A DNA stretch of 64,000 bases from NCBI RefSeq assembly GCF_003312875.1, contig NZ_CP015163.1:4836001-4900000 (forward strand). The letters are read 5' to 3'. This DNA is from Amycolatopsis albispora. Lineage in GTDB: Bacteria; Actinomycetota; Actinomycetes; Mycobacteriales; Pseudonocardiaceae. Shown here one piece after another: positions 45,908-62,417 of the stretch. A program made the translations under genes and the position numbers. The stretch's first letter is position 1, and each line of letters opens with the position of its first letter. The notes beneath the pieces are model-generated. The model worked only from the letters and a program-made list of their open reading frames with translations, searched no databases and was not told the DNA's origin.

Positions 45908-46989
45908 AGCCCGCGGAGCCACCACTGGGCATGCTGGCCGAGCTGACCCACCGCTGCCCGCTGCACTGCTCGTACTGCTCCAACCCGATCGAGCTGGTCA
46001 CCAGGGAGCGCGAACTCGACACCGGCCAGTGGCTTTCCGTGCTGTCACAGGCACGCGAGCTGGGCGTGCTGCAGGTGCACCTGTCCGGCGGTGAGCCGCT
46101 GGCGCGGCCCGACCTGCCGGAACTCGTCTCGCACGCCAGCGAACTCGGCTGCTACGTCAACCTGGTGACCAGCGGTCTCGGGCTGACCGAAAAGCGGCTC
46201 GACGACCTCGCCGACCGCGGCCTGGCCCACATCCAGCTGTCCGTGCAGGGCGCGGACGCCGAGCGCGCGGACCGGCTCGCGGGCACCAGGGCACACGAGC
46301 ACAAGCTCACCGCCGCCGCGCTGATCAAGCGCGCCGGGCTGCCGCTGAGCGTGAACGTGGTGCTGCACAAGCAAAACCACGACCAGCTCGCCGGGATCAT
46401 CGCACTCGCCGAACGCATGGGCGCCGACCGGCTCGAACTGGCGAACACGCAGTACTACGGCTGGGCGCTGAAGAACCGGACCGCCTTGATGCCGACGCGT
46501 GAGCAACTCGCGGCCGCCGAACCGGTCGTGCGCGCCGCCACCGAGCGCCTGCGTGGCGCGATGGAGGTCATCTACGTGGTCGCGGACTACTACGAGCCGT
46601 ACCCGAAACCGTGCATGTACGGCTGGGGCGCGCGGCAGCTGACCGTGGCGCCCGACGGTGACGTGCTGCCGTGCCCGGCGGCGACCGCGATCACCACGCT
46701 CGAACTGGACAACGTCACCCGGAAACCGTTGCACGACATCTGGTACCGCTCGAGTTCGTTCAACGCCTACCGCGGTGAGGACTGGATGAGCGAGACCTGC
46801 CGCTCGTGCGACCGGCGCGGCGCCGACCACGGCGGCTGCCGCTGCCAGGCCTTCCTGCTGACCGGGGACGCGGCGGCCACCGATCCGGTCTGCTCGCGCT
46901 CGCCGGACCGCGAGCTGGTCGACCTCATCCTGGCCGCGCCACCACCGGCGGTCGAGCCGGAGCTGGTCATGCGGCGGGTGGCACGATGA
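45898..46989 (+). CDS. pqqE: PqqE, radical SAM enzyme that crosslinks PqqA
   Basis: This 363-residue radical S-adenosylmethionine enzyme forms the carbon-carbon bond between Glu and Tyr of PqqA. The cluster motif CxxxCxxC is C20-C24-C27 (RCPLHCSYC), followed by SGGEPL for SAM binding. The C-terminal SPASM domain has the extra cluster cysteines in KPCMYGWG, LPCPAA and ETCRSCDRRGADHGGCRCQAF. The ATG at 45898 lies inside the end of pqqD. Its stop overlaps the pqqB start (ATGA). Confidence 0.95.
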   Translation: MAVKPAEPPLGMLAELTHRCPLHCSYCSNPIELVTRERELDTGQWLSVLSQARELGVLQVHLSGGEPLARPDLPELVSHASELGCYVNLVTSGLGLTEKRLDDLADRGLAHIQLSVQGADAERADRLAGTRAHEHKLTAAALIKRAGLPLSVNVVLHKQNHDQLAGIIALAERMGADRLELANTQYYGWALKNRTALMPTREQLAAAEPVVRAATERLRGAMEVIYVVADYYEPYPKPCMYGWGARQLTVAPDGDVLPCPAATAITTLELDNVTRKPLHDIWYRSSSFNAYRGEDWMSETCRSCDRRGADHGGCRCQAFLLTGDAAATDPVCSRSPDRELVDLILAAPPPAVEPELVMRRVAR

Positions 46990-47849
46990 AGGTCCTGCTG
47001 CTCGGCACCGCCGCCGGAGGCGGTTTCCCGCAATGGAACTGCGCATGCTCGTTGTGCACTTCGGACGCTCCACATCGGACGCAGGACTGCGTGGCGATCA
47101 GCGCGGACGGGCGCGGCTGGTACCTGCTCAACGCGTCGCCGGACATCCGCGCGCAAATCCTCGGCTCGCCCGTGTTGCGAGCCGGGCCAGGGCCACGCGA
47201 GACACCGTTGCGTGGTGCGCTGATCACCGACGCCGAGCTGGACCACACGCTCGGGCTGGTCATGCTGCGCGAAGCGCCGTCGTTCGGCGTCTGGGGACCG
47301 GACGCCGCGCTGCACGCGATGCGCGGCGCGTTACCCGTTGGCCGCTACGGGGATTGGCGGTTTTCCCCGGTGGCACCGGAAATCGGCGGCCTGCGGGTGT
47401 CGGCGCTGCCGGTCAGCGACAAGAAGCCGAAGTACGCGCGTGATTCCACTATGGACGGCCCTTGGGTGGTCGCCTACCGGATCGAGGACCCGGCCACCGG
47501 TGGTGTGTTCGTCTACGCGCCCTGCCTGGCGGCCTGGCCGCCCGGCTTCGACGAGTTCACCGACGGTGCCGACTACGTGCTGCTCGACGGCACCTTCTAC
47601 GGCGCCGACGAGATGTCCGGGGCGACCCGCGCCGGAGTCGGCACCCAGGCGCAGCGCGCCATGGGGCACGTACCGATCTCCGGCGCGGACGGCAGCCTCG
47701 CCCGCATCCGCGACCGCCCGGGACCACGCTGGGCCTACACGCACCTCAACAACACGAATCCCGCGCTCGCCCCGGATTCCCCGGAACACAAGGAAATCCT
47801 GGCCGCCGGCGCCGAACTGCCGCTCGACGGCACACTGCTGGACCTCTAG
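46986..47849 (+). CDS. pqqB: PqqB, metallo-hydrolase-fold protein of PQQ synthesis
   Basis: This 287-residue metallo-beta-lactamase-fold protein is thought to hydroxylate the Tyr of the crosslinked di-amino-acid intermediate. It begins MKVLLLGTAAGGGFPQWNCAC, with the zinc-binding CxCxxC (NCACSLC, about residues 18-24) typical of PqqB, then ITDAELDHTLGL and YTHLNNTNPAL. It is the last gene of the operon (order A-C-D-E-B; proteobacteria usually have A-B-C-D-E). Its end overlaps the convergent aldo/keto reductase by 4 bases. The PqqF/PqqG peptidase is not in the window. Confidence 0.94.
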   Translation: MKVLLLGTAAGGGFPQWNCACSLCTSDAPHRTQDCVAISADGRGWYLLNASPDIRAQILGSPVLRAGPGPRETPLRGALITDAELDHTLGLVMLREAPSFGVWGPDAALHAMRGALPVGRYGDWRFSPVAPEIGGLRVSALPVSDKKPKYARDSTMDGPWVVAYRIEDPATGGVFVYAPCLAAWPPGFDEFTDGADYVLLDGTFYGADEMSGATRAGVGTQAQRAMGHVPISGADGSLARIRDRPGPRWAYTHLNNTNPALAPDSPEHKEILAAGAELPLDGTLLDL

Positions 47850-48820
47850 GCGACGCCCTCCGGATTGGCGCCTTCGACCTGCACGGCGCCGGCGGTGAGG
47901 CGCTCGATCTCGGCCAGGTCCGCGGCGCTCAGGTCGACGTCCGCGGCGGCCAGGCTCTCGGAGATGTTCTTCGGCTTGCGGGCACCGACGATCGCCACGT
48001 GCACACCGGGTTGCGCGAGCACCCAGGCGATCGCCAGCTGGCTGACCGTGATGTTCTTGGTGGCCGCGAACTCCTTGAGCCGGTCCACCACTTCCAGGTT
48101 GCGCCGCAGGTTCTCGCCCTGGAACGCGGACGACTTGGAACGCCAGTCGTCGCTGTCGAAGGTGCTGTCCGGCGTGAGCGCACCGGTGAGCAGGCCGCTG
48201 CCGAGCGCGCTGTAGGCGAGCACGCCGATGTTGTGCTCGCGCGCGTACGGCATCGGATCCTGCTCGATCGCGCGGCGGAACAGGTGGTACGGCGGCTGGA
48301 GCGTCTCGACCGGCCGCGTCGCGTCGAAGGCGGCCAGCTGCCGAGTGTCGTAATTGGACACTCCGGCGTGCCGGATCTTGCCCTCGTCCACCAGTTCCTG
48401 GAGCGCCGACGCGGTTTCCTCCGCGGGGGTGTCGGCATCGGGCCAGTGCACCTGGTACAGGTCGATGTGGTCCAGCCCGAGGTGTCGCAGGCTTTCCTCA
48501 ACGCCGCTGCGCAGCGACTTCCGTCCGGCGTCACGCGAGCGCTGCTCGCCCGGGTAGATCCCGCCCTTGGTGGCGATCACCAGACTGTCGCGGTCACGGG
48601 TCAGCTCCTCGCGCAACGCCTTGCCCAGCAAGGCTTCCGACTTGCCGAAGCCGTAACCCTGTGCGGTGTCGAAGAAGTTGACGCCGAGTTCGCGCGCGTG
48701 CCGGATGGCCTCGATCGCGGTGTCCTCGTCGAACGCGCCCCAGTCCCCACCGAGCTGCCAGGTCCCGAACGCGATCCGGGAAACCTCCAGCCCGCTCCTG
48801 CCCAAAGTCGTCGTACGCAT
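47846..48820 (-). CDS. Aldo/keto reductase
   Basis: This 324-residue TIM-barrel reductase uses NADPH. Catalytic tetrad residues are visible: Asp and Tyr in NFFDTAQGYGFGKSE (about 48-60), Lys in VIATKGG (about 85) and His in LYQVHWPDAD (about 124). The C-terminal cofactor segment is HVAIVGARKPKNISESL. ATG at 48820 gives normal family length. It is divergent from an ArsR regulator with 93 bases between them, so shared control is likely. Its overlap with pqqB is tail-to-tail and does not imply a link with PQQ. Confidence 0.9.
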   Translation of the reverse strand: MRTTTLGRSGLEVSRIAFGTWQLGGDWGAFDEDTAIEAIRHARELGVNFFDTAQGYGFGKSEALLGKALREELTRDRDSLVIATKGGIYPGEQRSRDAGRKSLRSGVEESLRHLGLDHIDLYQVHWPDADTPAEETASALQELVDEGKIRHAGVSNYDTRQLAAFDATRPVETLQPPYHLFRRAIEQDPMPYAREHNIGVLAYSALGSGLLTGALTPDSTFDSDDWRSKSSAFQGENLRRNLEVVDRLKEFAATKNITVSQLAIAWVLAQPGVHVAIVGARKPKNISESLAAADVDLSAADLAEIERLTAGAVQVEGANPEGVA

Positions 48821-50722: not shown

Positions 50723-50779
50723 GTGTCACGAATGTGGCTTTCGAGACGTTTGGCGTCCCGAAAGCCACATTCGTGACAC
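50723..50779 (+). terminator. Long hairpin, dispersed family (copy 2), after the MFS gene
   Basis: Arms of 26 bases (50723-50748 and 50754-50779) pair with a single mismatch (A50744 opposite C50758) around loop TTTGG. The arms contain AATGTGGCTTTCGAGAC, identical over 17 bases to copy 1 at 34086. It starts 35 bases after the MFS stop and is the probable terminator of the ArsR-MFS operon. It is also the far 3' end of the stretch behind the amidase on the other strand. Confidence 0.78.
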
Positions 50780-50900: not shown

Positions 50901-51265
50901 AAGCCGCCAAGCGCCCACTCCGCCAGAGCCTCCGCGAAAGCCTCGCCGCCAATGGGCCGCCACAAAGACTCACCGCGAAAGACTTGCCGCGGAAGGGACG
51001 GCAGAAGGCCGCCGTGCAAGGCCCGCTGTAGAAGGCCTGCCGCGAAGGCCGCCGCAGAGGCCCGCCGCGAAAAGGGTCGCCACAGAAGGCCCGCCGCGGG
51101 AGGGGCGCCGCAGAAGGTCCCCGCGGAAGGCCCGCTGCGAAAGGGCGCCGCAAAAGACTCAGCGCGAAAGACTCGCCGCGAAAGGGGCGCCGTGGAAGGT
51201 CCGCCGCGGGAGGGGCACCGCGGGAGGCTCGCCGCGAAAAGGCCCGAAGGTCAGCCACCAAAGGG
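50901..51265. repeat. Degenerate ~14-bp minisatellite (GCCGCGAAAGGCC-like units)
   Basis: About 23 imperfect head-to-tail units of 12-16 bases fill this gap; the plus-strand consensus is roughly CGCCGCGAAAGGCC, with variants GCCGCGGAAGG, GCCACAGAAGG and GCCGCGGGAGG. Unit lengths vary by non-multiples of three and no ribosome site or signature codon pattern is seen, so I judge the 605-base gap 50689-51293 non-coding even though open frames run through it. Flanks are the dispersed hairpin and terminator on the left and the amidase stop on the right. Confidence 0.75.
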
Positions 51266-51293: not shown

Positions 51294-52703
51294 TCACCGG
51301 CGCGGCGCCGCTGGCCGATCCGTAGTCCGCGGAATGACCTCTTCCACCAGCTTCGCGACCGCCAGTACCAAATCGTCCGAATGCCGCGGCCCGACGATCT
51401 GCAACCCCACCGGCAAACCCGCCGCCGTAAACCCGATCGGCACGCTGATCGCCGGCTGCTGCGTCAGGTTGAACGGGTACGTGAACCGCGTCCACTCCGG
51501 CCAGGTCTGGTACGAACTCCCCGGCGGCACATCGTGCCCCGCCTCGAACGGCGAGATCGGCATCATCGGCGTGATCAGCACATCGTGCCGCAGGTGGAAC
51601 TCGCCCATGTGAATGCCCAGCGCGGCCCGCACCGCGCTCGCCTCCAGGTAGTCGCCCGCGGAGAACGTGTGCCCGTGCTCCCAGACCCGCCGCAGCCCCT
51701 GGTCGATCAGCTCCGCCGACCCCTCGGGGAACGTGTCCAGCCACTTCGCCGCCCCCGTCGACCACAGCACGTCGAACGCGTCCAGCGGGTCCGCGAACCC
51801 CGGGTCCGTCTCCTCGATCCGCAACCCCGCCTCGTTCACCGCGGCCACCGCCGCCAGGGTGATCCGCGCGATCTCCGGGTCCACGTCCACATACCCGAGG
51901 TTCGCCGAGTACGCCGCGTTCACCCCGCGCACATCCCGCCGCACCGCCTCGCGGTACGAACTCACCGGCGGCGCCAGCGCCGACGGATCGCGGTGATCCG
52001 GCAACGCCAGCACATCGAGCAGCAACGCCACGTCATCGACCGAGCGCGCCATCGGACCGGCGTGCCCCAGCGGCCCGAACGGGCTCGCCGGATACAGGGG
52101 AATCCGCCCGTGCGTCGGCTTGAAGCCGACGATGCCGCAGAACGACGCCGGAATCCGCACCGAGCCACCGCCGTCGGTGCCCACCGACAGCTCACCCATG
52201 CCCGCCGCGACCGCCGCCGCGCTGCCGCCGCTCGAACCGCCCGCGGTGAGCGCCGGATCCCACGGGTTGCGGGTGATGCCGTTCAACGTGTTGTCGGTGA
52301 CGGCCTTCCAGCCCAGTTCGGGCGTGGTCGTCTTGCCGAGCAGGACCAGCCCGTGCTCGCGCAGCCGCGCGGTGACCGGGCTGTCGACCTCCCACGGGCC
52401 GGCCGGGTCGATGCACCGCGAACCGCGCTGCGTCGGCCAGCCCTGGGTGAGGAACATGTCCTTGATCGAGGTCGGCACCCCGTCCAGCCAGCCGATCGGA
52501 TTGCCCTCGCGCCACCGCTGCTCGGCCAGTTTTGCCTGTTCCAGCGCGGAATCGGCGTCGACAAGGCAGTACGCGTTGAGCTCACCGTCCCGCTCGGCGA
52601 TCGCATCGAGGGAGGCCTGGGTCGCCTCCACCGGCGACAGCTCCCCGGACCCGTAGGCCGCGACGAGCTCACTGGCCGTCAGCAGGGTCCCCGACTCGTT
52701 CAT
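51294..52703 (-). CDS. Amidase signature family hydrolase
   Basis: This 469-residue amidase has the Ser-cisSer-Lys triad: Lys in GVPTSIKDMF (about residue 81), then GGSSGGSAAAVAAGMGELSVGTDGGGS with the two Ser (about 157 and 181). It should hydrolyse a carboxamide to acid and ammonia. ATG at 52703 sits 8 bases after the 2-hydroxyacid dehydrogenase stop, so both are one operon read leftward from the GATTGTCAACAATC operator at 53720. Its mRNA appears to end at the T-tailed hairpin 50862-50899. The amide is unknown; dicarboxylic mono-amides would fit the neighbours. Confidence 0.9.
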   Translation of the reverse strand: MNESGTLLTASELVAAYGSGELSPVEATQASLDAIAERDGELNAYCLVDADSALEQAKLAEQRWREGNPIGWLDGVPTSIKDMFLTQGWPTQRGSRCIDPAGPWEVDSPVTARLREHGLVLLGKTTTPELGWKAVTDNTLNGITRNPWDPALTAGGSSGGSAAAVAAGMGELSVGTDGGGSVRIPASFCGIVGFKPTHGRIPLYPASPFGPLGHAGPMARSVDDVALLLDVLALPDHRDPSALAPPVSSYREAVRRDVRGVNAAYSANLGYVDVDPEIARITLAAVAAVNEAGLRIEETDPGFADPLDAFDVLWSTGAAKWLDTFPEGSAELIDQGLRRVWEHGHTFSAGDYLEASAVRAALGIHMGEFHLRHDVLITPMMPISPFEAGHDVPPGSSYQTWPEWTRFTYPFNLTQQPAISVPIGFTAAGLPVGLQIVGPRHSDDLVLAVAKLVEEVIPRTTDRPAAPRR

Positions 52704-52711: not shown

Positions 52712-53701
52712 TCAGTTGCTGCCTGACGGCACGTAGCCCAAACGCTTGTCCACGACATTACGAAGCGGCTGCCCGGTGCGCCACCGCTCGAAGTTGGCGG
52801 CGAACACCTCGACCAGCGTGTTGCGCCAGCCGATGAAGTCCCCGGACATGTGCGGGGAGATCAACACGTTCTCCATGGTCCACAGTGGACTGTCCGAGGG
52901 CAGCGGCTCGGTGTCGAACACGTCCAGCGCGGCCCCGGCCGGACGGCCGTCGCGCAGCGCGCCGATCAGGTCCTCGGTGACCACCAGCTCGCCCCGCCCC
53001 ACGTTGACGAACCGCGCGCCGGGCTTCATCGCGGCGAAGGCCCGCGCGTCGAACATGCCCTTGGTCTGCTCGGTCAGCGGCGCCACCGCGATCACGTAGT
53101 CGTAGTCGCCGAGGTGCGTGGTCAGTTCCGCGGACGCGTGCACCACGCCGAAGTCCGGATCGGACTCGCGGGCCGTGCGCCCGGCACCGGCCACGGACAG
53201 CCCGGCGGCACGCAGCAGGCGGGCGATCGACCGGCCGATCGGCCCGGTGCCGACCACCAGCGCGCGCCTGCCGGAGATCCGCTCGGTCTCGCGGTGCAGC
53301 CAGGTCCGCTCCTGCTGGAGCTGCCGCGACCGCGCGAAGTCCTTGGCGAAGGCGAGCACCACACCCAGCACGTACTCGGCGATGGCGTCGTCGAACACGC
53401 CTCGCGAGTTCGTCAGCACCACGTCGCTCTCGCGCAGGCCGGGGAACAGCACGGGATCCACGCCGGCGCTCGCGATGTGCAGCCAGCGCAGCTTGTCCGC
53501 GGCCTCCCACGCGCCGGGCACGGCGGTGGACAGGAAGTCGTAGACGAAGAGGATGTCAGCGCCGTGTAACGCCTTCTTTAAACCCGCCTCGTCGGTGTAA
53601 CGCACCGCGGCCGCGTGCTCGATGCTGTCCATGTCCGGGGGGTGCTGGTCGCCGCACAGCACCGCCAACACCGGGGATTGGGTGCCGATCACCGTTGACA
53701 C
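52712..53701 (-). CDS. D-2-hydroxyacid dehydrogenase family protein
   Basis: This 329-residue NAD(P)-dependent enzyme interconverts a 2-oxo acid and its D-2-hydroxy acid. The Rossmann loop is VVGTGPIGRSIARLL (about residues 145-159). Catalytic residues are Arg in FVNVGRGELV, Glu in DVFDTEPLP and His in LISPHMSGD. The start is uncertain: GTG at 53701 is used, the frame continues to a TTG at 53731 that lies inside the operator, and GTGs at 53692 and 53671 also exist; none has a good ribosome site. It is divergent from the isomerase genes and shares the operator at 53720. Confidence 0.85.
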   Translation of the reverse strand: MSTVIGTQSPVLAVLCGDQHPPDMDSIEHAAAVRYTDEAGLKKALHGADILFVYDFLSTAVPGAWEAADKLRWLHIASAGVDPVLFPGLRESDVVLTNSRGVFDDAIAEYVLGVVLAFAKDFARSRQLQQERTWLHRETERISGRRALVVGTGPIGRSIARLLRAAGLSVAGAGRTARESDPDFGVVHASAELTTHLGDYDYVIAVAPLTEQTKGMFDARAFAAMKPGARFVNVGRGELVVTEDLIGALRDGRPAGAALDVFDTEPLPSDSPLWTMENVLISPHMSGDFIGWRNTLVEVFAANFERWRTGQPLRNVVDKRLGYVPSGSN

Positions 53702-53733
53702 GGTATGAGCCGGTCGTATGATTGTCAACAATC
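53695..53733 (+). promoter_or_regulatory. Promoter overlapped by GntR-type operator 1 (GATTGTCAACAATC)
   Basis: -35 TTGACA (53695-53700) and -10 TATGAT (53717-53722) are 16 bases apart, a near-consensus promoter for the isomerase operon. The operator GATTGT-CA-ACAATC (53720-53733) overlaps the -10 and the start point, so a bound regulator would block initiation. The same palindrome occurs at 54547 and 60146. The FCD-type GntR protein encoded at 55294 is the obvious candidate. Confidence 0.8.
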
Positions 53734-53792
53734 CGAGGAGCCACCCCGGAGGCTCTCTGCATTCCTGAAGACGTCACCGCGGAGGCTTGGCC

Positions 53793-54533
53793 TTGGATTT
53801 CGAAATGCCCGTGTTCGACGGCCCGCTCGCGCAGCGGGGCATCGGGGTGATCGCCCCGTTCGACCTCGCGCTGGAGCGCGAGCTCTGGCGCTGGGTGCCG
53901 ATGGAGGTCTCCCTCCACCTGGCCCGCACGCCGTACGAACCCGTGCCGGTGAGCATGGAGATGGCGCAACTAGTCAGCGACAGCAAGCACCTCGCGGCCG
54001 CCACGCGTGACGTGCTTCACGTGGAACCAGAGGTGGTCGCCTACCTCTGCACGTCCGGCAGCTTCGTCAACGGCATCGACTACGAGCGCTCGCTGTGCAA
54101 GGCGATCTGCGACGCCGGGGCGCCGGACGCGGTCACCACCTCCGGCGCGCTCGCCGAGGTGCTGCACCGCCTGGACCTGCACAAAGTCTCCGTGCTGACG
54201 CCGTACGACGAGGACCTGACCGGCAAGCTGCACGACTTCCTGGCCGAACTGGACGTGAAAACGGTGTCCAGTGACCACCTCGGCCTCGGCGGCGGCATTT
54301 GGAAGGTGAGCTACCGGACCATCGCCGAGCGCATCCTCGCCGCCGACCACTCCGAGGCCGAAGCGGTGTTCGTCAGCTGCACGAACCTGCCCACCTTCGA
54401 CCTGATCGAGCCGCTGGAGGCGGCGCTCGGCAAACCGGTGCTGACCGCGAACCAGCTCACCATGTGGGCCTGCCTGATGCGGATGGGCCTGCCGATCGTC
54501 GGCCCCGGGAAGTGGTTGCGTGACGTTTCGTAG
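53793..54533 (+). CDS. Maleate isomerase-like Asp/Glu racemase superfamily protein (two-Cys)
   Basis: This 246-residue protein belongs to the maleate isomerase/arylmalonate decarboxylase branch of the Asp/Glu racemase fold. Both catalytic positions are Cys: C86 in YLCTSGSF and C196 in FVSCTNLPTF, as in maleate cis-trans isomerase. The gene starts with TTG at 53793, chosen because GGAGG ends 7 bases before it; a TTG two codons earlier is too close. It is followed after 45 bases by a paralogue. A role in isomerising or racemising an unsaturated or amino dicarboxylate fits the surrounding malate/tartrate and semialdehyde dehydrogenases. Confidence 0.83.
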   Translation: MDFEMPVFDGPLAQRGIGVIAPFDLALERELWRWVPMEVSLHLARTPYEPVPVSMEMAQLVSDSKHLAAATRDVLHVEPEVVAYLCTSGSFVNGIDYERSLCKAICDAGAPDAVTTSGALAEVLHRLDLHKVSVLTPYDEDLTGKLHDFLAELDVKTVSSDHLGLGGGIWKVSYRTIAERILAADHSEAEAVFVSCTNLPTFDLIEPLEAALGKPVLTANQLTMWACLMRMGLPIVGPGKWLRDVS

Positions 54534-54546
54534 CGTGGTTCGTTAG

Positions 54547-54560
54547 GATTGTCGACAATC
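54547..54560 (+). promoter_or_regulatory. GntR-type operator 2 (GATTGTCGACAATC)
   Basis: A fully symmetrical 14-bp palindrome lies between the two isomerase-like genes, 18 bases before the second start and just ahead of its AGGAGG ribosome site. It differs from operator 1 in one base at the centre. A possible -10 TAGGAT (54544-54549) overlaps it. Its presence inside what could be one operon suggests separate control of the second isomerase and the regulator gene. Confidence 0.75.
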
Positions 54561-54578
54561 TGCAGGAGGTGCTCGAGC

Positions 54579-55292
54579 TTGACCACGATCGGCTTCATCT
54601 ACCCGGACCACGCGGCCGAGGACGACTACCCGCTGGCCGAGCGCCTTCTCGGACAGCGGTTCCCGGTCGAGCACATCTACGGCACGGACCTCCACGCCGT
54701 GCCGGAGCTGCTCGATCTCGGCAGCCCGGAGCGCCTGAAGGAAGGCGCCGGACTGCTGGCCAAGCACGAGCCGGACGCCGTGGTGTGGGCGTGCACGAGC
54801 GGCAGCTTCGTCTACGGCTGGGAGGGCGCGCGCAAGCAGGCCGACCAGCTCGCCGAGGTCGCCGGGGTGCCGTCCACCAGCACTTCCTTCGCGTTCGTCG
54901 AAGCGGCCAAGGCGCTCGGGGTGCGGAAGGTGGCCGTCGCCGCCAGCTATCCCGACGACGTCGCGCGGCTGTTCGTCGAGTTCCTCGGCGCGGGCGGGGT
55001 CGAGGTGCTCAGCATGTCCAGCGCGGGCATCGACACCGCGGCCGAGGTCGGCGAGCTGAGCCCGGAGGCGGTGGTCGAGCTGGCGGTCGCGCACGACCAC
55101 CCGGAGGCCGACGCCGTGCTCGTGCCGGACACCGCGATGCGCACGCTCGGCGTGCTCGGCGCCATCGAGGACCGGCTCGGAAAGCCGGTTCTCACCGCGA
55201 ACCAGGTGACCATCTGGGAAGGTCTTCGCCAGGCCGGCGCCCCGGTGGCGTCCGCCGAGCTGGGAGCTCTGTTCCGGGACAAGGGAAACTGA
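54579..55292 (+). CDS. Maleate isomerase-like paralogue with only one catalytic Cys
   Basis: This 237-residue protein is a paralogue of the preceding gene: both share CTSGSF and GKPVLTANQ. It retains the first Cys (C72 in WACTSGSF), but the second position reads VPDTAMRTL with Asp184, where the partner has SCTNLPTF. Racemases need two Cys; arylmalonate decarboxylase keeps only the second. Keeping only the first is unusual and points to another chemistry, such as decarboxylation or one-sided proton transfer, or to a heteromer with the first protein. It starts with TTG at 54579, 9 bases after AGGAGG. The GntR gene follows after 1 base. Confidence 0.8.
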   Translation: MTTIGFIYPDHAAEDDYPLAERLLGQRFPVEHIYGTDLHAVPELLDLGSPERLKEGAGLLAKHEPDAVVWACTSGSFVYGWEGARKQADQLAEVAGVPSTSTSFAFVEAAKALGVRKVAVAASYPDDVARLFVEFLGAGGVEVLSMSSAGIDTAAEVGELSPEAVVELAVAHDHPEADAVLVPDTAMRTLGVLGAIEDRLGKPVLTANQVTIWEGLRQAGAPVASAELGALFRDKGN

Positions 55293-55293
55293 C

Positions 55294-55962
55294 ATGCCGC
55301 TGGCCGACATCGAACCGGTGAACCGGGAGTCCACCGCGGGCATCATCGCGCGGCAGCTCCGCGACGCGATCATGAACGGCGCGCTGCCGCCCGGCACGCA
55401 GCTGGGCGAGACGGAGCTGGCCTCGCGGTTCCAGGTTTCGCGTGGCCCGCTGCGCGAGGCGATGCAGCGGCTGGTCTCCGAGGGGCTGCTGCGCAGCGAA
55501 CGGCACCGCGGGCTGTTCGTGATCGATCTCGAGCCGGACGACGTGTACGACATCTACGTCGCGCGGGCGGCGATCGAGCGGGCGGCGGCGCTGCGGATCA
55601 TGCGCGGTGACCGGGAAAAGGCCGCCGCCGCGCTCGACGAGATCGTGCGTGAAATGGCCGCGGCCGCCGACGAGGACGACCCGACCGCGCTGTCCGACGC
55701 CGATCTGCGCTTCCACGAGGTGCTGGTCGCCGAATCCGGCAGCCGCCGGCTGATGCGGATGACGCAGACGCTGCTGATCGAGACCCGCATGTGCCTTTCG
55801 ATGCTGCAGCAGACCTACCAGCGGGTCGAGGAACGCGTGGACGAGCACAACCAGCTGATCGACGCCATCCGCGCCGGTGACGAGGAAACCGTGCTGAAGC
55901 TGCTGGAAGCCCACATGGAGGACGCCGTGCAGCGGCTGCTGCCGGGCACCACGCTGCACTGA
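55294..55962 (+). CDS. GntR-family FCD regulator, probable master of the GATTGTCRACAATC regulon
   Basis: This 222-residue regulator has an N-terminal winged HTH (about 10-70: STAGIIARQLRDAIMNGALPPGTQLGETELASRFQVSRGPLREAMQRLV) and an FCD domain (about 85-215) with metal/ligand-type residues in DLRFHEVLV and EHNQLIDAI. FCD proteins sense carboxylic acids and bind short palindromes resembling the three sites here. It is co-transcribed with the isomerase genes, 1 base after the second. A GAAA-loop hairpin follows its stop. Control of the genes at 51.3-55.9 and 57.6-62.0 kb is inferred from the shared operator. Confidence 0.87.
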   Translation: MPLADIEPVNRESTAGIIARQLRDAIMNGALPPGTQLGETELASRFQVSRGPLREAMQRLVSEGLLRSERHRGLFVIDLEPDDVYDIYVARAAIERAAALRIMRGDREKAAAALDEIVREMAAAADEDDPTALSDADLRFHEVLVAESGSRRLMRMTQTLLIETRMCLSMLQQTYQRVEERVDEHNQLIDAIRAGDEETVLKLLEAHMEDAVQRLLPGTTLH

Positions 55963-55965
55963 AAT

Positions 55966-55983
55966 CCCTGACGAAAGTCAGGG
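55966..55983 (+). terminator. Hairpin after the GntR gene
   Basis: A 7-bp perfect stem (CCCTGAC with GTCAGGG) closes a GAAA tetraloop 3 bases past the stop. There is no T-run, but a stable tetraloop hairpin this close to a stop is a likely actinobacterial terminator of the isomerase-GntR operon. Confidence 0.65.
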
Positions 55984-56040
55984 CCGGGCGGCGACGGTCG
56001 GCCGCTGTGCCGCCCCCGTCCCGGTTCGTAGCGTCACCCG

Positions 56041-57510
56041 GTGACCAAAACGAAGCTGCTCTGGTGGTCCGGCGTCGCCCTGCTCGCGCTGACCGTGCAC
56101 ACCAACTGGGCCAGTCCGCTCGCGGCCTGGCTGTTCGCCATCCCACTGCTCCTGTTCACCTTCGCCGCGCGCCGCGGGCTGCTCAAGGTGCTCGGCGCGC
56201 TCGCCATCGGCACGCTCGTCTGGCTGGCGGCGACCACGTTGTTGTTCGTGCCCGCCGCGCTGCTCGCCTTCGCCGTGCTCACGTTGCTGCAGTGGCTGGC
56301 CTTCGTCGCGCACCGGCTGCTCACGCCGCGCCTGCCCGGTTTCCTGGGCACGCTGGTCTTCCCGGTCACGCTCGCCGGTGCCGAGTACCTGTTCCCGCTG
56401 GTGGTCCGGTTCGGTGACTACGGTGCGCTCGGGTCCACTCAGCACGCCAACCTGCCGCTGCTGCAGCTGGCCTCGGTCACCGGCGTGTACGGCATCACGT
56501 TCCTGATGGGCTGGTTTGCCTCGACCGCGGTCTGGGCCTGGGAAACCCGCAACGCGCGCCGGTTCGTGGTCTACGGCTTGGTGCTGGCCGCGGTGTTCGC
56601 CGGGGGCGCCGCCCGGCTCGCCTTCTTCGCGCCCGCGGACACTTCGGTGCGCGTCGCCGCGGTGAGCCCGACCCGCGCGGCCGACGAGCGCACCGCGAGC
56701 GCACTGTCCACAATGGAGGTTGAATACTGGCGGGCGGGCGCGGTGGTGGCCGCGGATCCCGGTGGCGTCCGCGCGGCCTTCGCGCCGGTCACCGACGACC
56801 TGCTCGAGCAGACCCGCCGCCAGGCCGTGGCGGGCGCGAAGATCGTGCTCTGGCCGGAAACCCACGCCCGCGTCCTGGAGGGGGACCAGCGTGAACTGCT
56901 CGACCGCGCGACCGTGATCGCGCGGGAAACCGGCGCCTACGTCAACCTGGCGTACGCGATGTACACGGCCGAAGCGCCGAACATCCGCAACCTCAGCACC
57001 ATGATCACGCCGTCCGGTGAGATCGCCTGGACCTACGACAAGAGCCAGCCGACGCCCATGGAGCCGATGACACCCGGGCCGGGTGTGGTGCCCACTGTGG
57101 ACACTCCGTACGGCCGGATCGCCGGGGTCATCTGCTACGACGCCGACTTCCCGCACCTCATGCGCCAGGCCGCCGACAAGGGCGCGGACCTGCTGCTGGT
57201 GCCCGCCAACGACTGGGCCGAGTTCTCCGAGCTGCACGCGGAAAAGGCGGTCTTCCGCAACGTCGAATACGGCTATTCGATGCTGCGCGACTCCGCACAC
57301 GGGTTGTCCACAGCTGTGGACGCGCAGGGCCGGGTGCTCGCCAGCACGGACTGGTTCCGGACGGACCAGCAGACCCTGGTCGCCAACCTGTCGGTGCAGG
57401 CTCGTACCGCCACCGTCTACAGCACCGTCGGGGACGCCTTCGCGTGGCTCTGCCTGGCGGGCGCCGGTGCCCTCACCCTCGCCGCCCTACGCCGCCGTCC
57501 GGGGCTGTGA
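56041..57510 (+). CDS. Apolipoprotein N-acyltransferase-like membrane protein
   Basis: This 489-residue protein has six or so N-terminal membrane helices (residues 1-195), a nitrilase-fold extracytoplasmic domain (about 205-455) and a last membrane helix (about 462-482), the layout of Lnt. The nitrilase triad is present: E273 in LWPETHA, K334 in TYDKSQPTP and C365 in GVICYDADFP. Lnt adds the third acyl chain to lipoproteins. In mycobacteria it is linked to the polyprenol-phosphate-mannose synthase Ppm1; here no such gene is adjacent. It sits between two halves of a catabolic regulon without an operator of its own. It starts with GTG at 56041. A paralogue with another acyl-transfer role is possible. 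Confidence 0.8.
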   Translation: MTKTKLLWWSGVALLALTVHTNWASPLAAWLFAIPLLLFTFAARRGLLKVLGALAIGTLVWLAATTLLFVPAALLAFAVLTLLQWLAFVAHRLLTPRLPGFLGTLVFPVTLAGAEYLFPLVVRFGDYGALGSTQHANLPLLQLASVTGVYGITFLMGWFASTAVWAWETRNARRFVVYGLVLAAVFAGGAARLAFFAPADTSVRVAAVSPTRAADERTASALSTMEVEYWRAGAVVAADPGGVRAAFAPVTDDLLEQTRRQAVAGAKIVLWPETHARVLEGDQRELLDRATVIARETGAYVNLAYAMYTAEAPNIRNLSTMITPSGEIAWTYDKSQPTPMEPMTPGPGVVPTVDTPYGRIAGVICYDADFPHLMRQAADKGADLLLVPANDWAEFSELHAEKAVFRNVEYGYSMLRDSAHGLSTAVDAQGRVLASTDWFRTDQQTLVANLSVQARTATVYSTVGDAFAWLCLAGAGALTLAALRRRPGL

Positions 57511-57512
57511 AC

Positions 57513-57565
57513 GCAATGAATGTGGCTTTCATAGCGTCAGGCGCAATGAAAGCCACATTCATTGC
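57513..57565. terminator. Long hairpin, dispersed family (copy 3), between convergent genes
   Basis: Perfect 20-base arms (57513-57532 and 57546-57565) surround a 13-base loop, directly after the Lnt-like stop and 6 bases before the stop of the convergent dehydrogenase, so it can serve both. The arm shares AATGTGGCTTTC with copies 1 and 2, but the outer part reads GCAATG in place of TCACG, showing two subtypes of the repeat. Confidence 0.8.
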
Positions 57566-57571
57566 ACGGGC

Positions 57572-58630
57572 TCAGGTGAGGGCGTCCGCGATCGCGCTGC
57601 CCAGGTCGGTGGTGGTGGCGCTGCCGCCCAGGTCCGGCGTCGCCACCGAGCCGTCGGCCAGCACCTTTTCCACCGCCGAGTTGATCGCGCGGGCGGCCGC
57701 CGCCTCGCCGAGGTGGTCGAGCATCATCGCGCCCGCGAGCACCTGGGCCACCGGGTTCGCGATGCCCTGCCCGGCGATGTCCGGCGCGCTGCCGTGCACC
57801 GCTTCGAACATCGACGGGTGCTCCCCCGGCGGATTGATGTTGCCCGACGGCGCCATGCCGAGCCCGCCGGTCACCGCCGCCGCCAGGTCGCTCAGGATGT
57901 CCCCGAACAGGTTCGACGCCACCACCACGTCCAGCCGCTCCGGGTGCTGCACCATGCGCGCCGCCAAGGCGTCCACATGGCACTGTTCACTGTGGACATC
58001 CGGGTATTCGGCGGCGATCTCGGCGAAGATCTCGTCCCAGTACGGCATCGAGTGGATCAGCCCGTTCGACTTGGTCGCCGAGCACACCCGGCCGGTCCGC
58101 GTCTTCGCCAGCTCGAAGGCGTACCGGATGATCCGCTCCACGCCGACCCTGGTGAACACCGACTCCTGCAGCACGAACTCACCGGGCTGCCCGGTGTTGT
58201 GCCGCCCGCCGAGCTGGGAGTACTCGCCCTCGGAGTTCTCACGGACGATCACCATCTCCAGCTCCTCGGCCGACCGCCCGGCCAGCACCGAAGTGGTGCC
58301 GGGCAGCAACCGCACCGGCCGCAGGTTCACGTACTGCGCGAACGCGCGCCGCAGCGGGATCAGCAGGCCCCACAGCGAAACGTGGTCCGGCACGCCGGGA
58401 AAGCCGACCGCGCCGAGGAAGATGCCGTCGAACGCGGCCAGCTGCGCGACCCCGTCCTCCGGCATCATCCGCCCGGTTTCGGTGTACCGCTCGCAGCTCC
58501 AGTCGAACTCGGTCCACCGCAACGAAAACCCGTGCAGCCCGGCCGCGCGGTCGAGCACCTTGCGGGCCTCGATGGTGACGTCGACGCCGATGCCGTCGCC
58601 GGGAATGCTCGCGATCTGGTACTCGGTCAC
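57572..58630 (-). CDS. Tartrate/D-malate dehydrogenase (isocitrate-isopropylmalate family)
   Basis: This 352-residue enzyme belongs to the beta-decarboxylating dehydrogenases and most resembles tartrate/D-malate dehydrogenase. Marks are IPGDGIGVDVTIEA at the start, LRPVRLLPG with substrate Arg, VIVRENSEGEYSQLGGR, and the metal-binding Asp region in VVASNLFGDILSDLAAAVTGGLGMAPSGNINP. It would turn D-malate, tartrate or a related 2-hydroxy diacid into a 2-oxo acid and CO2. GTG at 58630 overlaps the aldehyde dehydrogenase stop as GTGA, so the two are coupled. Isopropylmalate dehydrogenase is less likely given the context. Confidence 0.87.
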   Translation of the reverse strand: MTEYQIASIPGDGIGVDVTIEARKVLDRAAGLHGFSLRWTEFDWSCERYTETGRMMPEDGVAQLAAFDGIFLGAVGFPGVPDHVSLWGLLIPLRRAFAQYVNLRPVRLLPGTTSVLAGRSAEELEMVIVRENSEGEYSQLGGRHNTGQPGEFVLQESVFTRVGVERIIRYAFELAKTRTGRVCSATKSNGLIHSMPYWDEIFAEIAAEYPDVHSEQCHVDALAARMVQHPERLDVVVASNLFGDILSDLAAAVTGGLGMAPSGNINPPGEHPSMFEAVHGSAPDIAGQGIANPVAQVLAGAMMLDHLGEAAAARAINSAVEKVLADGSVATPDLGGSATTTDLGSAIADALT

Positions 58631-60090
58631 AGGTTCACCGCGATGTACTTGGTCTCGAGGAACTCGTCGATGCCGAACTTGCCGCCTTCGCGGCCCAGCC
58701 CGGAGGCCTTGATGCCGCCGAACGGCGCCGCCGGATTGGACACCAGGCCCTGGTTCAGCCCGACCATGCCGGACTCCAGCCGCTCGGAAACCCTCAGCGC
58801 GCGCTTGATGTCGCTGGTGTAGAGGTAGCTGACCAGGCCGTATTCGGTGTCGTTGGCCGCAGCGAGCACCTCCTCCTCGGTGTCGAAGATATAGATCGGC
58901 GCCACCGGGCCAAAGATCTCCTCGGTGGCCATGTCGGCGTCGAGCGGGACCTCGGTCAGCACGGTGGCCTGGTAGAAGTTGCCCGGACCGTCCACAGTGG
59001 CCCCACCGGTGAGCACCTTGGCGCCGCGCTCCACCGCGTCGCGCACCAGGCCGCTGACCTTGTCCACCGCGGCCTGGTCGATCAGCGGGCCGACCACCAC
59101 GCCGTCCTCGGTGCCGCGGCCCATCGGCAGCGCGGCCATCTTCTCGGTGAGCCTGCGGCCGAACTCGGCGGCCACGCCCTTCTGCACGTAGATCCGGTTG
59201 GCCGCGGTGCACGCCTCGCCGATGTTGCGCATCTTCGCCAGCATCGCGCCCTCGAGCGCGGCGTCCAGGTCGGCGTCGTCGAACACGATGAACGGCGCGT
59301 TGCCGCCCAGTTCCATCGAGGTCCGCAGCACCTTGTCGGCGCACTGCTCCAGCAACTTCCGGCCGACCGCGGTCGAGCCGGTGAAGGACAGCTTGCGCGC
59401 GCGGCCGTCGCGGATCAGCGGCTCCATCACCCCACCGGAGTCGCTGGTGGTCAGCACGTTGAGCACGCCTTCCGGCAACCCGGCCTCGGCCAGGATCTCG
59501 GCCAGCGCCAGCATCGACAGCGGGGTCTGCGCGGCCGGCTTGATGATCATCGTGCAACCCGCCGCCACCGCCGGGCCGATCTTGCGGGTGCCCATCGCCA
59601 TCGGGAAGTTCCACGGGGTGATCAGCAGCGACACCCCGACCGGCTGCTTGGCCACCAGGAACCGGCCGGACCCGTTCGGCGCCACCGAGTAGTCACCGCC
59701 GATGCGCACCGCCTCCTCGGCGAACCACCGGAAGAACTCCGCCGCGTAGGCGATCTCGCCACGCGACTCGGCCAGCGGCTTGCCCATCTCCAGCGTCATC
59801 AGCAGCGCGAGTTCCTCGGTGCGGTCCACCAAGGACTGGTAGGCGCGCCGCAGGATCTCGCCGCGCTCACGCGGCGCCGTCCGCGCCCAGTCCGCCTGCG
59901 CCGCCACCGCCGCGTCGAGCGCCGCCATGCCGTCCGCCGGGGACGCGTCGGCCACCTGGCACAGCGCTTCACCGGTGGACGGGTCGAGCACCGGGAAGGT
60001 CCGGCCACCTTCCGCGGCGGTCCACTTCCCGCCGATGAAAAGTTCCTTCGCGACCGTGTCGACGACCCCGGCCTCGCTGATCTCGCCCAT
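58627..60090 (-). CDS. Succinate-semialdehyde dehydrogenase family enzyme
   Basis: This 487-residue NAD(P)-dependent aldehyde dehydrogenase resembles GabD. It has LITPWNFPMAMGTRKIGPA, the base Glu in MELGGNAPFIVFDDADLD (about residue 253), the nucleophile Cys in NIGEACTAANRIYV (about residue 287) and the C-terminal PFGGIKASGLGREGGKFGIDEFLETKYI. The ATG at 60090 is preferred because GGAG lies 8 bases upstream; an ATG at 60111 would add seven residues. It is divergent from an aminotransferase, which would make the semialdehyde this enzyme oxidises. Operator 3 lies between them. Confidence 0.9.
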   Translation of the reverse strand: MGEISEAGVVDTVAKELFIGGKWTAAEGGRTFPVLDPSTGEALCQVADASPADGMAALDAAVAAQADWARTAPRERGEILRRAYQSLVDRTEELALLMTLEMGKPLAESRGEIAYAAEFFRWFAEEAVRIGGDYSVAPNGSGRFLVAKQPVGVSLLITPWNFPMAMGTRKIGPAVAAGCTMIIKPAAQTPLSMLALAEILAEAGLPEGVLNVLTTSDSGGVMEPLIRDGRARKLSFTGSTAVGRKLLEQCADKVLRTSMELGGNAPFIVFDDADLDAALEGAMLAKMRNIGEACTAANRIYVQKGVAAEFGRRLTEKMAALPMGRGTEDGVVVGPLIDQAAVDKVSGLVRDAVERGAKVLTGGATVDGPGNFYQATVLTEVPLDADMATEEIFGPVAPIYIFDTEEEVLAAANDTEYGLVSYLYTSDIKRALRVSERLESGMVGLNQGLVSNPAAPFGGIKASGLGREGGKFGIDEFLETKYIAVNL

Positions 60091-60145
60091 CACTACCGCT
60101 CCTGTCCGCATTCATTGCGCCCGGTCCGATGGCCATGCTATGCAT

Positions 60146-60157
60146 ATTGTCAACAAT
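60146..60157. promoter_or_regulatory. GntR-type operator 3 (ATTGTCAACAAT)
   Basis: ATTGT-CA-ACAAT lies in the 102-base divergent gap, 36 bases before the aminotransferase start and 56 before the semialdehyde dehydrogenase start. It extends to ATTGTCAACAATC on the right but lacks the left G of operators 1 and 2. On the minus strand its TTGACA could be a -35 box. Position between divergent genes suggests joint control. Confidence 0.75.
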
Positions 60158-60192
60158 CGACAAGAGACCCCGTCCGAAGGAGCACCGCTGCC

Positions 60193-61449
60193 ATGGCCCA
60201 GCTCTCCCCCCTGCTCAAGCAGGCCACCCCGGTCGTCGTGGACCACGGCGAGGGCACCTATCTGTTCGACAGCGAAGGCAGGCGGCACCTCGACTTCACC
60301 GCCGGCATCGGCGTCACCAGCACCGGGCACTGCCACCCGAAGGTGGTCGCCGCCGCCCAGGAGCAGATCGGCAAGCTGATCCACGGGCAGTACACCACCG
60401 TGATGCACAAGCCGCTGCTCGAACTGACCGAGCGCCTCGGCGGCGTGCTGCCGCCCGGGCTGGACTCGCTGTTCTTCTCCAACTCCGGCAGCGAGGCGGT
60501 GGAGGCGGCCCTGCGGCTGTCGCGCCAGGCGACCGGCAGGCCGAACGTGATCGTGTTCCAAGGCGGGTTCCACGGCCGGACCGTCGCCGCCGCGTCGATG
60601 ACCACCTCGGGCACCCGGTTCAGCGCCGGCTTCTCGCCGCTGATGTCGGGCGTGCACGTGGCGCCGTTCCCCTACGCCTACCACTACGGCTGGGACGAGA
60701 AGACCGCGACGAAGTTCGCGCTGCGCGAGCTGGACTACCTGTTCGCCACGCTCACCGCGCCGAACGAGGTGGCCGCGTTCTTCGTCGAGCCGGTGCTCGG
60801 GGAGGGCGGTTACGTGCCGGCCAACACCGAGTTCATGGCCGGGCTGCGCGAGCGCGCCGACAAACACGGCATCCTGCTGGTGCTCGACGAGGTGCAGACC
60901 GGCTTCGGCCGCACCGGCAAGTTCTGGGGCCACGACCACTTCGACGTGCGGCCGGACATCGTGCTCATCGCGAAGGGCCTGGCCAGCGGCTTCCCGCTGT
61001 CCGGCATCGCCGCGTCGCAGGAGCTGATGTCGAAGGCGTGGCCGGGTTCGCAGGGCGGCACCTACGGCGGCAACGCGGTTTCGTGCGCCGCCGCCTGCGC
61101 CACGCTCGACGTGATCGCCGAAGAGGGCCTGGTCGCCAACGCCGCCGAGCGCGGCACGCAGCTGCTCGACGGTGCCCGCCTGATCGGCGACAAGAACGCC
61201 GCCATCGGTGACGTGCGCGGGCTCGGGCTGCTGGTCGGCTCGGAGTTCACCACCGCCGACGGCGAACCGGACACGGTCACCGCGCAGGCCGCGCAGAAGG
61301 CCGCCGCCGAGCGCGGGCTGCTGCTGCTCACCTGCGGTGCCTGGATGAACGTGGTCCGGATGATCCCGCCGCTGGTGGTCACCGCCGAGCAGGTCGACGA
61401 GGCGCTGGGCATCTGGGCCGAGGTCGTCGACACCGTCACCAAGAGCTAG
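60193..61449 (+). CDS. Class III aminotransferase (GABA/omega-amino acid type)
   Basis: This 418-residue PLP enzyme moves an amino group, probably from an omega-amino acid, to 2-oxoglutarate or pyruvate and yields a semialdehyde. Key blocks are LDFTAGIGVTSTGHCHP, FFSNSGSEAVEAALRLSRQATGR, the Asp in LLVLDEVQTGFGRTGKFWG and the PLP Lys in IVLIAKGLASGFPLSG (about residue 261). It pairs functionally with the divergent semialdehyde dehydrogenase. ATG at 60193 has AAGGAG 11 bases upstream. The DUF3830 gene follows after 13 bases. Confidence 0.9.
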   Translation: MAQLSPLLKQATPVVVDHGEGTYLFDSEGRRHLDFTAGIGVTSTGHCHPKVVAAAQEQIGKLIHGQYTTVMHKPLLELTERLGGVLPPGLDSLFFSNSGSEAVEAALRLSRQATGRPNVIVFQGGFHGRTVAAASMTTSGTRFSAGFSPLMSGVHVAPFPYAYHYGWDEKTATKFALRELDYLFATLTAPNEVAAFFVEPVLGEGGYVPANTEFMAGLRERADKHGILLVLDEVQTGFGRTGKFWGHDHFDVRPDIVLIAKGLASGFPLSGIAASQELMSKAWPGSQGGTYGGNAVSCAAACATLDVIAEEGLVANAAERGTQLLDGARLIGDKNAAIGDVRGLGLLVGSEFTTADGEPDTVTAQAAQKAAAERGLLLLTCGAWMNVVRMIPPLVVTAEQVDEALGIWAEVVDTVTKS

Positions 61450-61462: not shown

Positions 61463-61966
61463 TTGGCCCGCTACATCACCATCACGCTCGACAAGCGCGG
61501 CGTTTCCTGCCGCGCGCGGCTGCTCGACGCCGAAGCCCCGCGCACCTGCGAGGCGGTGTGGAACGCGCTGCCGCAGAGCGGCTCGGCCTACCACGCGAAG
61601 TACGCGCGCAACGAGATCTACACGCTCGTGCCGCCGTTCGCCCAGCCCAAGCCGGGGCGGGAGAACCCGACCGTCACGCCGATCCCCGGTGACGTCGTCT
61701 ACTTCGGCTTCGAGGCGTGGGAGATCGGCAATCCCGCGTACGGCTACGACGAGGGCAGCGAAGCCCACAGCGACCAGGGCGCGACCGATCTCGCGCTCTT
61801 CTACGGCCGCAACAACCTGCTGATCAACGGGGACGCGGGCTGGGTGCCCGGCAACGTGTTCGCCACGATCGAGGAGGGCCTGTCCGAGATCGCCGCGGCG
61901 GCGCAGGATCTGTGGCTCCGCGGCGTCGAGGGCGAGACGCTTTCCTTCGCCCGCGCCGAAAACTGA
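61463..61966 (+). CDS. DUF3830 family protein (cyclophilin-like fold)
   Basis: This 167-residue protein matches what I know of the DUF3830 family, small cyclophilin-like proteins of unknown function often placed in catabolic operons. Visible stretches are CEAVWNALPQSGSAYHAKYARNEIY (about 29-53), PGDVVYFGF and DLALFYGRNNLLINGDAGWVPGNVFATI. No signal or membrane helix is seen. It starts with TTG at 61463 with AGGAG 7 bases before it, the third TTG start in this regulon. Being co-transcribed with the aminotransferase, it may be an accessory or unrecognised enzyme of the pathway. Confidence 0.78.
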   Translation: MARYITITLDKRGVSCRARLLDAEAPRTCEAVWNALPQSGSAYHAKYARNEIYTLVPPFAQPKPGRENPTVTPIPGDVVYFGFEAWEIGNPAYGYDEGSEAHSDQGATDLALFYGRNNLLINGDAGWVPGNVFATIEEGLSEIAAAAQDLWLRGVEGETLSFARAEN

Positions 61967-62171: not shown

Positions 62172-62237
62172 GTGTTTAGCCTGAGGGGTTGCTTGCAGAG
62201 CCGAAGCAACCACCCCGGCACCCGGGCGGCTTTTTGA
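62172..62237 (+). CDS. Possible 21-aa leader peptide before the GlcD-like gene
   Basis: GTG at 62172, with GAAGGA 5 bases upstream, opens a 22-codon frame ending in TGA at 62235-62237 (MFSLRGCLQSRSNHPGTRAA, then F). The frame runs through the strong hairpin 62187-62211 and ends right at a T-run, the geometry of a transcription-attenuation leader. It has no run of one amino acid. Translation is not proven; the case rests on layout only. The rest of the 559-base stretch 61967-62525 holds the terminator before it, a second small ORF at 62325 and the promoter of the oxidase. Confidence 0.35.
   Translation: MFSLRGCLQSRSNHPGTRAAF
62187..62235 (+). promoter_or_regulatory. Attenuator-like hairpin plus T-run
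   Basis: GGTTGCTT (62187-62194) pairs with AAGCAACC (62204-62211) around a 9-base loop, and the stem can extend by two more G-C pairs past a bulged A. It is followed by CCCGG-CAC-CCGGG (62214-62226) and then CGGC and TTTTT (62231-62235), a small intrinsic terminator. The two structures share two bases, so they may compete. A leader frame overlaps both. Confidence 0.5.
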
Positions 62238-62324
62238 CAGCACGCCAATCCGGCTGCGAATCTCGGAATCGCTTTCGAAAGCAATTCACGTTCGAAATCA
62301 ACCTTTTCCGAGGAGTTCCCACCC

Positions 62325-62417
62325 ATGCAGATTTTCGCCGCCCACGCCCACCACGCCGACGACATCATCACCAGCGCGCTGGCGTGCCTGGCACACCTCG
62401 TGGGCTGGCTCGTCTGA
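62325..62417 (+). CDS. Possible 30-aa small protein
   Basis: An ATG at 62325, 9 bases after GAGGAG, opens a 31-codon frame: MQIFAAHAHHADDIITSALA, then ten mostly hydrophobic residues ending GWLV. The second half could form a short amphipathic or membrane-seeking helix; the first half is His-rich. It may be a small peptide or a second leader for the FAD oxidase 108 bases downstream. I recognise no family. The good ribosome site is the main support. Confidence 0.4.
   Translation: MQIFAAHAHHADDIITSALACLAHLVGWLV

Follow-up and report, generated by a model that had tools for sequence, protein, structure and literature searches.

A conserved predicted FCD-GntR regulon in Amycolatopsis albispora and its probable role in (hydroxy)ectoine catabolism

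Ectoines are major microbial osmolytes. Their canonical catabolic route runs through ring opening by EutD, deacetylation by EutE, transamination by Atf, and oxidation by Ssd to aspartate, while EutABC are the proposed enzymes for hydroxyectoine; most of this pathway had not been biochemically evaluated as of 2018 (PMC5924519; for this and the other papers cited, our statements refer to the partial text available to us). The named ectoine regulators are EnuR/EutR, of the MocR type, and AsnC/DoeX (PMC5924519, PMC5320631). A 2026 paper describes putative ectoine clusters in Gram-positive bacteria that are based on EutD and EutB, and calls their occurrence unexpected (PMC13188858). From the FCD regulators, PrpR of Pseudomonas aeruginosa has been reported with the 12-mer operator ATTGTCGACAAT (PMC9765439). 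Here we describe a gene set in a 64,000-nucleotide stretch of Amycolatopsis albispora (contig NZ_CP015163.1, positions 4,836,001 to 4,900,000; hereafter the window) that very probably forms a genuine FCD-GntR regulon with three operators, and whose likely role, as judged from sequence comparisons, is a variant form of (hydroxy)ectoine catabolism controlled by an FCD repressor.

The core 12-mer ATTGTCRACAAT has exactly three copies in the 9.12 Mb single-contig genome, all inside one 6.4 kb stretch, and its reversed control pattern has none in the whole 9.12 Mb. Operator 1 (GATTGTCAACAATC, 53720..53733) lies between the divergent genes hydDH and iso1, operator 2 (GATTGTCGACAATC, 54547..54560), a perfect palindrome, between iso1 and iso2, and operator 3 (TATTGTCAACAATC, 60145..60158) between the divergent ssadh and aminotransferase genes. 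The original prediction had presented these as three copies of one palindrome; the first two are indeed exact 14-mer matches, but the third departs from the 14-mer at one base and matches the 12-mer core exactly, at 60146-60157. It had also proposed a genome scan, by which the exact core proves not to be scattered, its three copies all standing at these genes. Looser look-alikes, mostly with three mismatches, are scattered genome-wide (174 matches per strand versus 67 for the control), and a windowed motif test with up to three mismatches does not discriminate (six strand-matches versus a shuffle mean of 3.84); the operator count was judged on the exact core genome-wide, not on this shuffle statistic. 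The near-consensus promoter that had been placed under the first site was recovered as TTGACA-N16-TATGAT for iso1 (53695..53722, plus strand; 11/12 consensus matches), overlapped by operator 1. It is the sole promoter-like match within 53600-60250; shuffled sequence yields 0.2 on average there. In A. albispora, no transporter adjoins any of the three operators.

To follow this arrangement across genomes we used 80 named loci retrieved with the regulator protein, the best 80 of at least 467, mostly from Amycolatopsis and other Pseudonocardiaceae, and also from Glycomyces, some Nocardiopsaceae, and a few metagenome-assembled actinobacteria. All 204 exact sites in these loci (1.58 Mb) lie within 300 bp upstream of a cluster gene; choosing loci by the regulator biases toward the cluster, but the absence of stray sites does not follow from that bias. 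A site within this distance precedes hydDH in 78/78 genes, aminotransferase in 71/72, ssadh in 69/74, iso1 in 63/70, iso2 in 60/79, and DUF3830 in 6/66, and precedes no amidase, gntR, or ttuC gene; the amidase, the regulator, and the tartrate dehydrogenase (ttuC) are second or later genes of their units. Besides the regulator, present in all 80 loci by selection, we found iso2 in 79, hydDH in 78, ssadh in 74, amidase in 73, aminotransferase in 72, iso1 in 70, DUF3830 in 66, and ttuC in 50, where some loci end at contig ends and homologs under identity floors of 45-60% were disregarded. Nearly every base of the region around site 1, promoter included, is kept in 63 loci. The looser motif ATTGTCNACAAT has matches in 80/80 genomes of the genus, and in 27 of the 28 for which places are listed at least two sites fall within ∼12 kb (G004 being the exception). 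Together with the genome-wide uniqueness of the core, this footprinting strongly supports the predicted arrangement of one FCD regulator and three operators over two gene blocks.

The gene identities originally proposed were largely right when compared with NCBIfam and Pfam families. Leftward from operator 1 run hydDH, of the D-2-hydroxyacid dehydrogenase family by NCBIfam/Pfam (52712..53695, minus strand, start approximate), and, as second gene of that operon, an amidase-signature amidase (51294..52703, minus strand; NCBIfam PRK06169, 764 bits over a cut-off of 506). On the plus strand follow iso1, of the EutA / Asp-Glu racemase superfamily (53787..54533), iso2, of the EutA / arylmalonate decarboxylase superfamily (54579..55292), both assigned by NCBIfam/Pfam, and the GntR/FCD regulator (55294..55962; Pfam GntR 65 bits and FCD 86 bits, both over cut-off). 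The other block holds ttuC, an optional member of the tartrate/D-malate dehydrogenase type (57572..58630, minus strand; TTC equivalog, 514 bits over a cut-off of 470), ssadh, encoding a succinate-semialdehyde dehydrogenase (SSADH)-like enzyme with a proposed Ssd/DoeC-like role (58627..60111, minus strand; 579 bits, under the cut-off of 828), and a class III aminotransferase with a proposed Atf/DoeD-like role (60193..61449, plus strand; 476 bits, under the cut-off of 574). Directly behind the latter, on the same strand, lies the gene of a DUF3830 protein (61463..61966; 219 bits over a cut-off of 26), whose nearest solved structure, 3kop, is named uncharacterized.

For both iso1 and iso2 the top NCBIfam match is EutA (TIGR02990; 97 and 111 bits), and both match the Pfam arylmalonate decarboxylase family. 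The catalytic-type cysteines of iso1 are conserved (C88 in 87/87 and C198 in 87/88 aligned at that position; 88 of 98 supplied loci aligned), and one canonical EutA likewise carries both superfamily cysteines. In iso2, C72 is Cys in 90/94 aligned and Ser in 4, while an invariant Asp184 replaces the second Cys (96/96; 96 of the 98 loci aligned). The two-cysteine signature of Asp/Glu racemases and maleate isomerases thus has both its Cys in iso1 and fails in iso2 with its Cys and Asp, so the two are probably different catalysts. Regulator residues D137, H141, H185, and H207, which we take to be the FCD metal ligands, occur in 93/93 aligned (98 loci supplied) and suggest a carboxylate as the ligand. 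The ssadh product is 46% identical to Ssd of a canonical ectoine cluster. One canonical EutC had no blastp match at E ≤ 1e-3 among 13 window-derived queries and 10 neighbor proteins from relatives.

The host carries complete ectA, ectB, ectC, and ectD genes, each over cut-off, elsewhere in its genome. Canonical catabolic enzymes gave a different picture. EutD/DoeA ectoine hydrolase (TIGR02993) was not found over cut-off in the host genome (best 70 of 613 bits) or in any of 18 relatives (best 416, in G087); EutE/DoeB deacetylase (TIGR02994) had no match in the host and was over cut-off in 0/19 genomes; and EutB dehydratase (TIGR02991) was likewise over cut-off in 0/19, with a host best of 272 of 413 bits and sub-cut-off matches also in all 14 control genomes.

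The link to ectoine comes from more distant relatives. A search for DUF3830 across 396 phylum genomes gave 43 with matches over cut-off, 19 of them above 180 bits (the long type); the remaining 24 carry weaker, mostly shorter forms and were left out of the co-occurrence counts, and eleven of their loci (L122-L132, 2.4-3.4 kb each) contain none of the set's genes. Longer stretches around DUF3830 hold the same genes, joined in several distant families by GATTGTC(A/G)ACAATC operators, and 30 of 36 operator-like sites in 18 distant genomes stand at cluster genes; those away from the cluster are two in G471 and one each in G404, G240, G207, and G413. Beside the genes at locus L143 lie all four components of the ectoine importer past their equivalog cut-offs (score/cut-off: EhuB 277/190.9, EhuC 223/197, EhuD 279/205, and EhuA 357/345 bits). 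By similarity to L143, the same genes stand together at L138, L141, and L144, and Ehu-like genes are present at L191; at L134/L188 (G305), EhuB (205) and EhuA (364) are over cut-off and EhuC (161) under. At L187 (G087), EhuB, C, D, and A are all over cut-off (267, 264, 264, and 376 bits), an operator lies 42 bp upstream of the ehuB frame, and gntR, iso1, and iso2 share this block with a ProP-like carrier. Operators precede BCCT or ProP-like carriers at L139, L145, L146, and L187. There are also M24 proteins nearest to ectoine hydrolase: those at L136 and L139 score 416 and 174 bits to TIGR02993 (cut-off 613), the latter also 220 bits to DoeA_2 (cut-off 575). A separate observation at L187 is a Rid-family-like protein (10957-11412; 29 bits to TIGR00004, cut-off 106) directly behind operator variant GATTGTCTACAATG, near the Ehu genes.

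On plasmids, iso2 matches 496 records; among the 20 matches listed, 16 carry the annotation EutA and 3 come from unannotated records, and the best one listed (36.7%) belongs to a Sinorhizobium cluster of Ehu, amidohydrolase, aldehyde dehydrogenase, and diaminobutyrate transaminase. We also noted exact operators on pRHL1 of Rhodococcus jostii RHA1 (L195), together with an aminotransferase 69%, an SSADH 64%, and a partial FCD regulator 47% identical to those of the set, and with no isomerase or amidase match in the 25 kb stretch; this is perhaps a reduced version of the set in a model strain.

Across the 396 genomes, ectoine synthase is over cut-off in 42, comprising 13/19 with long DUF3830 and 29/377 others, and EhuB in 31, comprising 11/19 and 20/377; the Fisher values (6e-10 for the synthase, 5e-9 for EhuB) are descriptive, as they ignore shared ancestry. 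In G087 ehuB lies in a second operator-bearing block, and in G284 on a contig with iso1. We also examined 18 regions around EhuB matches, one of which (G395) is below cut-off: iso2 stands beside ehu in six (four of these also with hydDH) and iso1 in one. In the genus designated g8, the retrieved EhuB regions have iso2 in 10/10 and hydDH in 8/10, six of the ten having been chosen by EhuB and not by DUF3830.

Under the reading that we consider likely, the FCD-type GntR repressor encoded at 55294 would act through the three GATTGTCRACAATC-type operators on four transcription directions, which jointly would encode a variant route for degrading ectoine and/or 5-hydroxyectoine, where an amidase, a 2-hydroxyacid dehydrogenase, DUF3830, and two EutA-like enzymes take the place of EutB, EutD, and EutE. 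At site 1 it would occupy the iso1 promoter; since operator 1 overlaps that promoter, repression there would be by promoter occlusion. Release may follow when a carboxylated pathway compound binds at the FCD-domain metal. Among the enzymes, iso1, iso2, and hydDH would handle the ring and, with hydroxyectoine, its hydroxyl (EutA/EutC-like roles), with hydDH as a candidate for a reduction; the amidase may take off the acetyl group (an EutE-like role) or open the amidine, and DUF3830 might open the ring or carry out a dehydration. A diaminobutyrate-type product would then pass to the aminotransferase and the SSADH-like enzyme, to be taken toward aspartate in the manner of Atf and Ssd. Ectoine is proposed as the substrate from genome context, and the individual steps, which we infer, could be permuted. 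Because the host has ectoine/hydroxyectoine synthesis genes and no importer at an operator, the regulon probably recycles the host's own solute once salt stress ends.

Several observations weigh against an ectoine role. The EutA scores of iso1 and iso2 are far below the 318-bit cut-off, the aminotransferase is only 34% identical to its canonical ectoine-cluster counterpart, and DUF3830 has no evidence-based reaction assignment. No EhuB over cut-off was found in the host genome (best 62 of 190.9 bits), and neither BCCT nor ProP carriers are specific to ectoine. The co-occurrence counts take related genomes as independent, and ectoine synthase was not found in 6 of the 19 long-DUF3830 genomes. 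In just 5 of the 11 such genomes with EhuB does it lie within 10 kb of DUF3830 (G413, G207, G240, G250, and G305), and ehuB is elsewhere in G129, G153, G314, and G363. Two of the 18 EhuB regions have canonical EutB/EutC (one also DoeA), and nine have none of these enzymes, L212 among them with a 40% GntR beside ehuB. The Ehu-linked clusters of g8 have no adjacent operator or GntR of this type, so regulator and Ehu linkage coincide in some lineages only. Finally, ehuABCD of Nocardiopsis gilva is reported to lie downstream of ectD and to be raised at high salt (PMC5884947); Ehu alone therefore does not prove catabolism.

The most probable alternative is that the set degrades another small osmolyte or a cyclic or N-acyl amino acid, also carried by transporters of the Ehu, ProP, and BCCT types, such as a betaine-type solute, ADPC, or a pyrrolidine or pyrimidine carboxylate. 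Such a substrate would fit the operators that several lineages have at BCCT and ProP-like carriers, as well as the below-ortholog match of iso1/iso2 and the aminotransferase to EutA and the canonical aminotransferase, and at L136 a block resembling glycine-cleavage and serine-dehydratase genes lies across an operator (seen by eye, from sequence starts only). We nevertheless think it unlikely: several genomes have EhuABCD over the equivalog cut-offs, and one of them has an operator in front of ehuB; the gene set co-occurs with ectoine synthase and EhuB; and iso2, with or without hydDH, stands beside Ehu in six g8 genomes whose retrieved stretch showed neither amidase nor DUF3830.

Less probable still is a dicarboxylate or amide pathway of the maleamate/maleate, tartrate, or GABA type, with amidase, cis-trans isomerases, and dehydrogenases for semialdehyde and for malate/tartrate. 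The Pfam and NCBIfam names and the over-cut-off TTC score of ttuC speak for it, and on a plasmid relative the aminotransferase, SSADH, and operators are near an annotated aspartate ammonia-lyase and tartrate dehydrogenase. Yet ttuC is optional (50/80 loci), and two-Cys isomerases need the second catalytic cysteine, which is lost in iso2. Such a pathway also leaves the Ehu and osmolyte-carrier linkage unexplained, and a nicotinate/maleamate reading was set aside on the same ground. The original prediction's suggestion of a possibly new route, acting on an amide or a dicarboxylic amino acid, has given way to the ectoine reading, in view of the relatives' linkage to Ehu, osmolyte carriers, and ectoine synthesis and of the best match to EutA. 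It is highly improbable that the sites are the operator of a PrpR-like FCD regulator that cross-talks here with genes of no common substrate: P. aeruginosa PrpR reportedly uses an identical 12-mer (PMC9765439), but all 80 loci, having been chosen by the regulator, carry its gene inside the cluster, the exact 12-mer is nowhere else in this genome, and genes and operators are conserved as a unit.

Beyond the host, we lean somewhat toward a broader interpretation in which a second, EutD/EutE-independent (hydroxy)ectoine route, with amidase, 2-hydroxyacid dehydrogenase, DUF3830, an EutA-like pair of which one member has a Cys/Asp active site, and an FCD repressor, is ancestral in actinobacteria and lets producers such as this host recycle their own ectoines instead of scavenging them. 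If this holds, actinobacteria would have a widely conserved pathway, under regulation, whose enzymes have new functions. It would also yield a role for DUF3830, for which a structure has been solved, and would point to genes whose deletion might stop ectoine loss in an actinomycete producer.

Other features of the window lie outside the regulon. An Lnt-like gene at 56041, between the blocks, was excluded from the system (lnt match in 1/80 loci, L053), as was a glcD-like gene at 62526, which lacks an operator and occurs at ≥60% identity in 28/80 loci. An MFS-type gene (49429) that is convergent with the amidase and has no operator recurs in 31/80 loci; between the two, at 50986-51246, is a degenerate array of ∼14/28/82-base G+C-rich repeat units, within which open reading frame calls are unreliable. 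Inverted-repeat pairs with arms like GAATGTGGCTTTCAT share a 43-base layout at 57518-57560, 50730-50772, and 34093-34135, one exact and two with two mismatches per arm (shuffle mean 0.00), and are probably a dispersed intergenic palindromic element. By eye, from translations of open reading frames, 45000-47850 holds a row of pqqC-, radical-SAM pqqE-, and pqqB-looking genes, and 35900-43200 holds look-alikes of a thiamine-diphosphate enzyme, hydantoinase A/B-like subunits, an SDR, and an FAD oxidoreductase. A possible small open reading frame of 31 residues lies at 62324-62417, and upstream of it, at ∼62190-62240, a G+C-rich inverted repeat is discernible by eye. No Rfam family reaches its gathering score anywhere in the window.

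In the literature searched (ectoine or hydroxyectoine with GntR, FCD, racemase, or amidase; subscription papers outside its scope) we found no description of this system, no paper under the name DUF3830, and no mention of the operator ATTGTCAACAAT. Closest in regulation is PrpR, which belongs to the same FCD-GntR family and shares the 12-bp operator consensus (PMC9765439), so the 12-mer is not unique to the regulator at 55294; PrpR, however, represses the prp operon of methylcitrate genes, whereas the families of the window set are not methylcitrate-cycle enzymes. The Gram-positive clusters of PMC13188858 resemble our set as proposed ectoine catabolism in Actinomycetota with amidohydrolase and aldehyde dehydrogenase, and have varied transporters (MSF as printed, BCCT, Ueh, and Ehu), but they were located via EutD and EutB, which the window genome does not have over cut-off; in the main text of that paper no word starts with gntr, amidase, racemase, or duf. 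Closest in proposed function are eutABCDE-ssd-atf and doeABCD of Sinorhizobium, Ruegeria, and Halomonas, which likewise combine an EutA-superfamily protein, a class III aminotransferase, and an SSADH-like dehydrogenase, and whose EhuABCD linkage is seen in relatives of the window set. Because the defining enzymes of that cluster were searched for and EutB, EutD, and EutE were not found over cut-off in the window genome, we place the set outside it, as a putative new variant of ectoine-catabolic regulons. The set further contains an amidase, the D-2-hydroxyacid dehydrogenase hydDH, DUF3830, and another EutA-like protein, of the Cys/Asp type; its regulator is of the FCD type, as compared to the MocR-type EnuR and AsnC of the Eut/Doe clusters.

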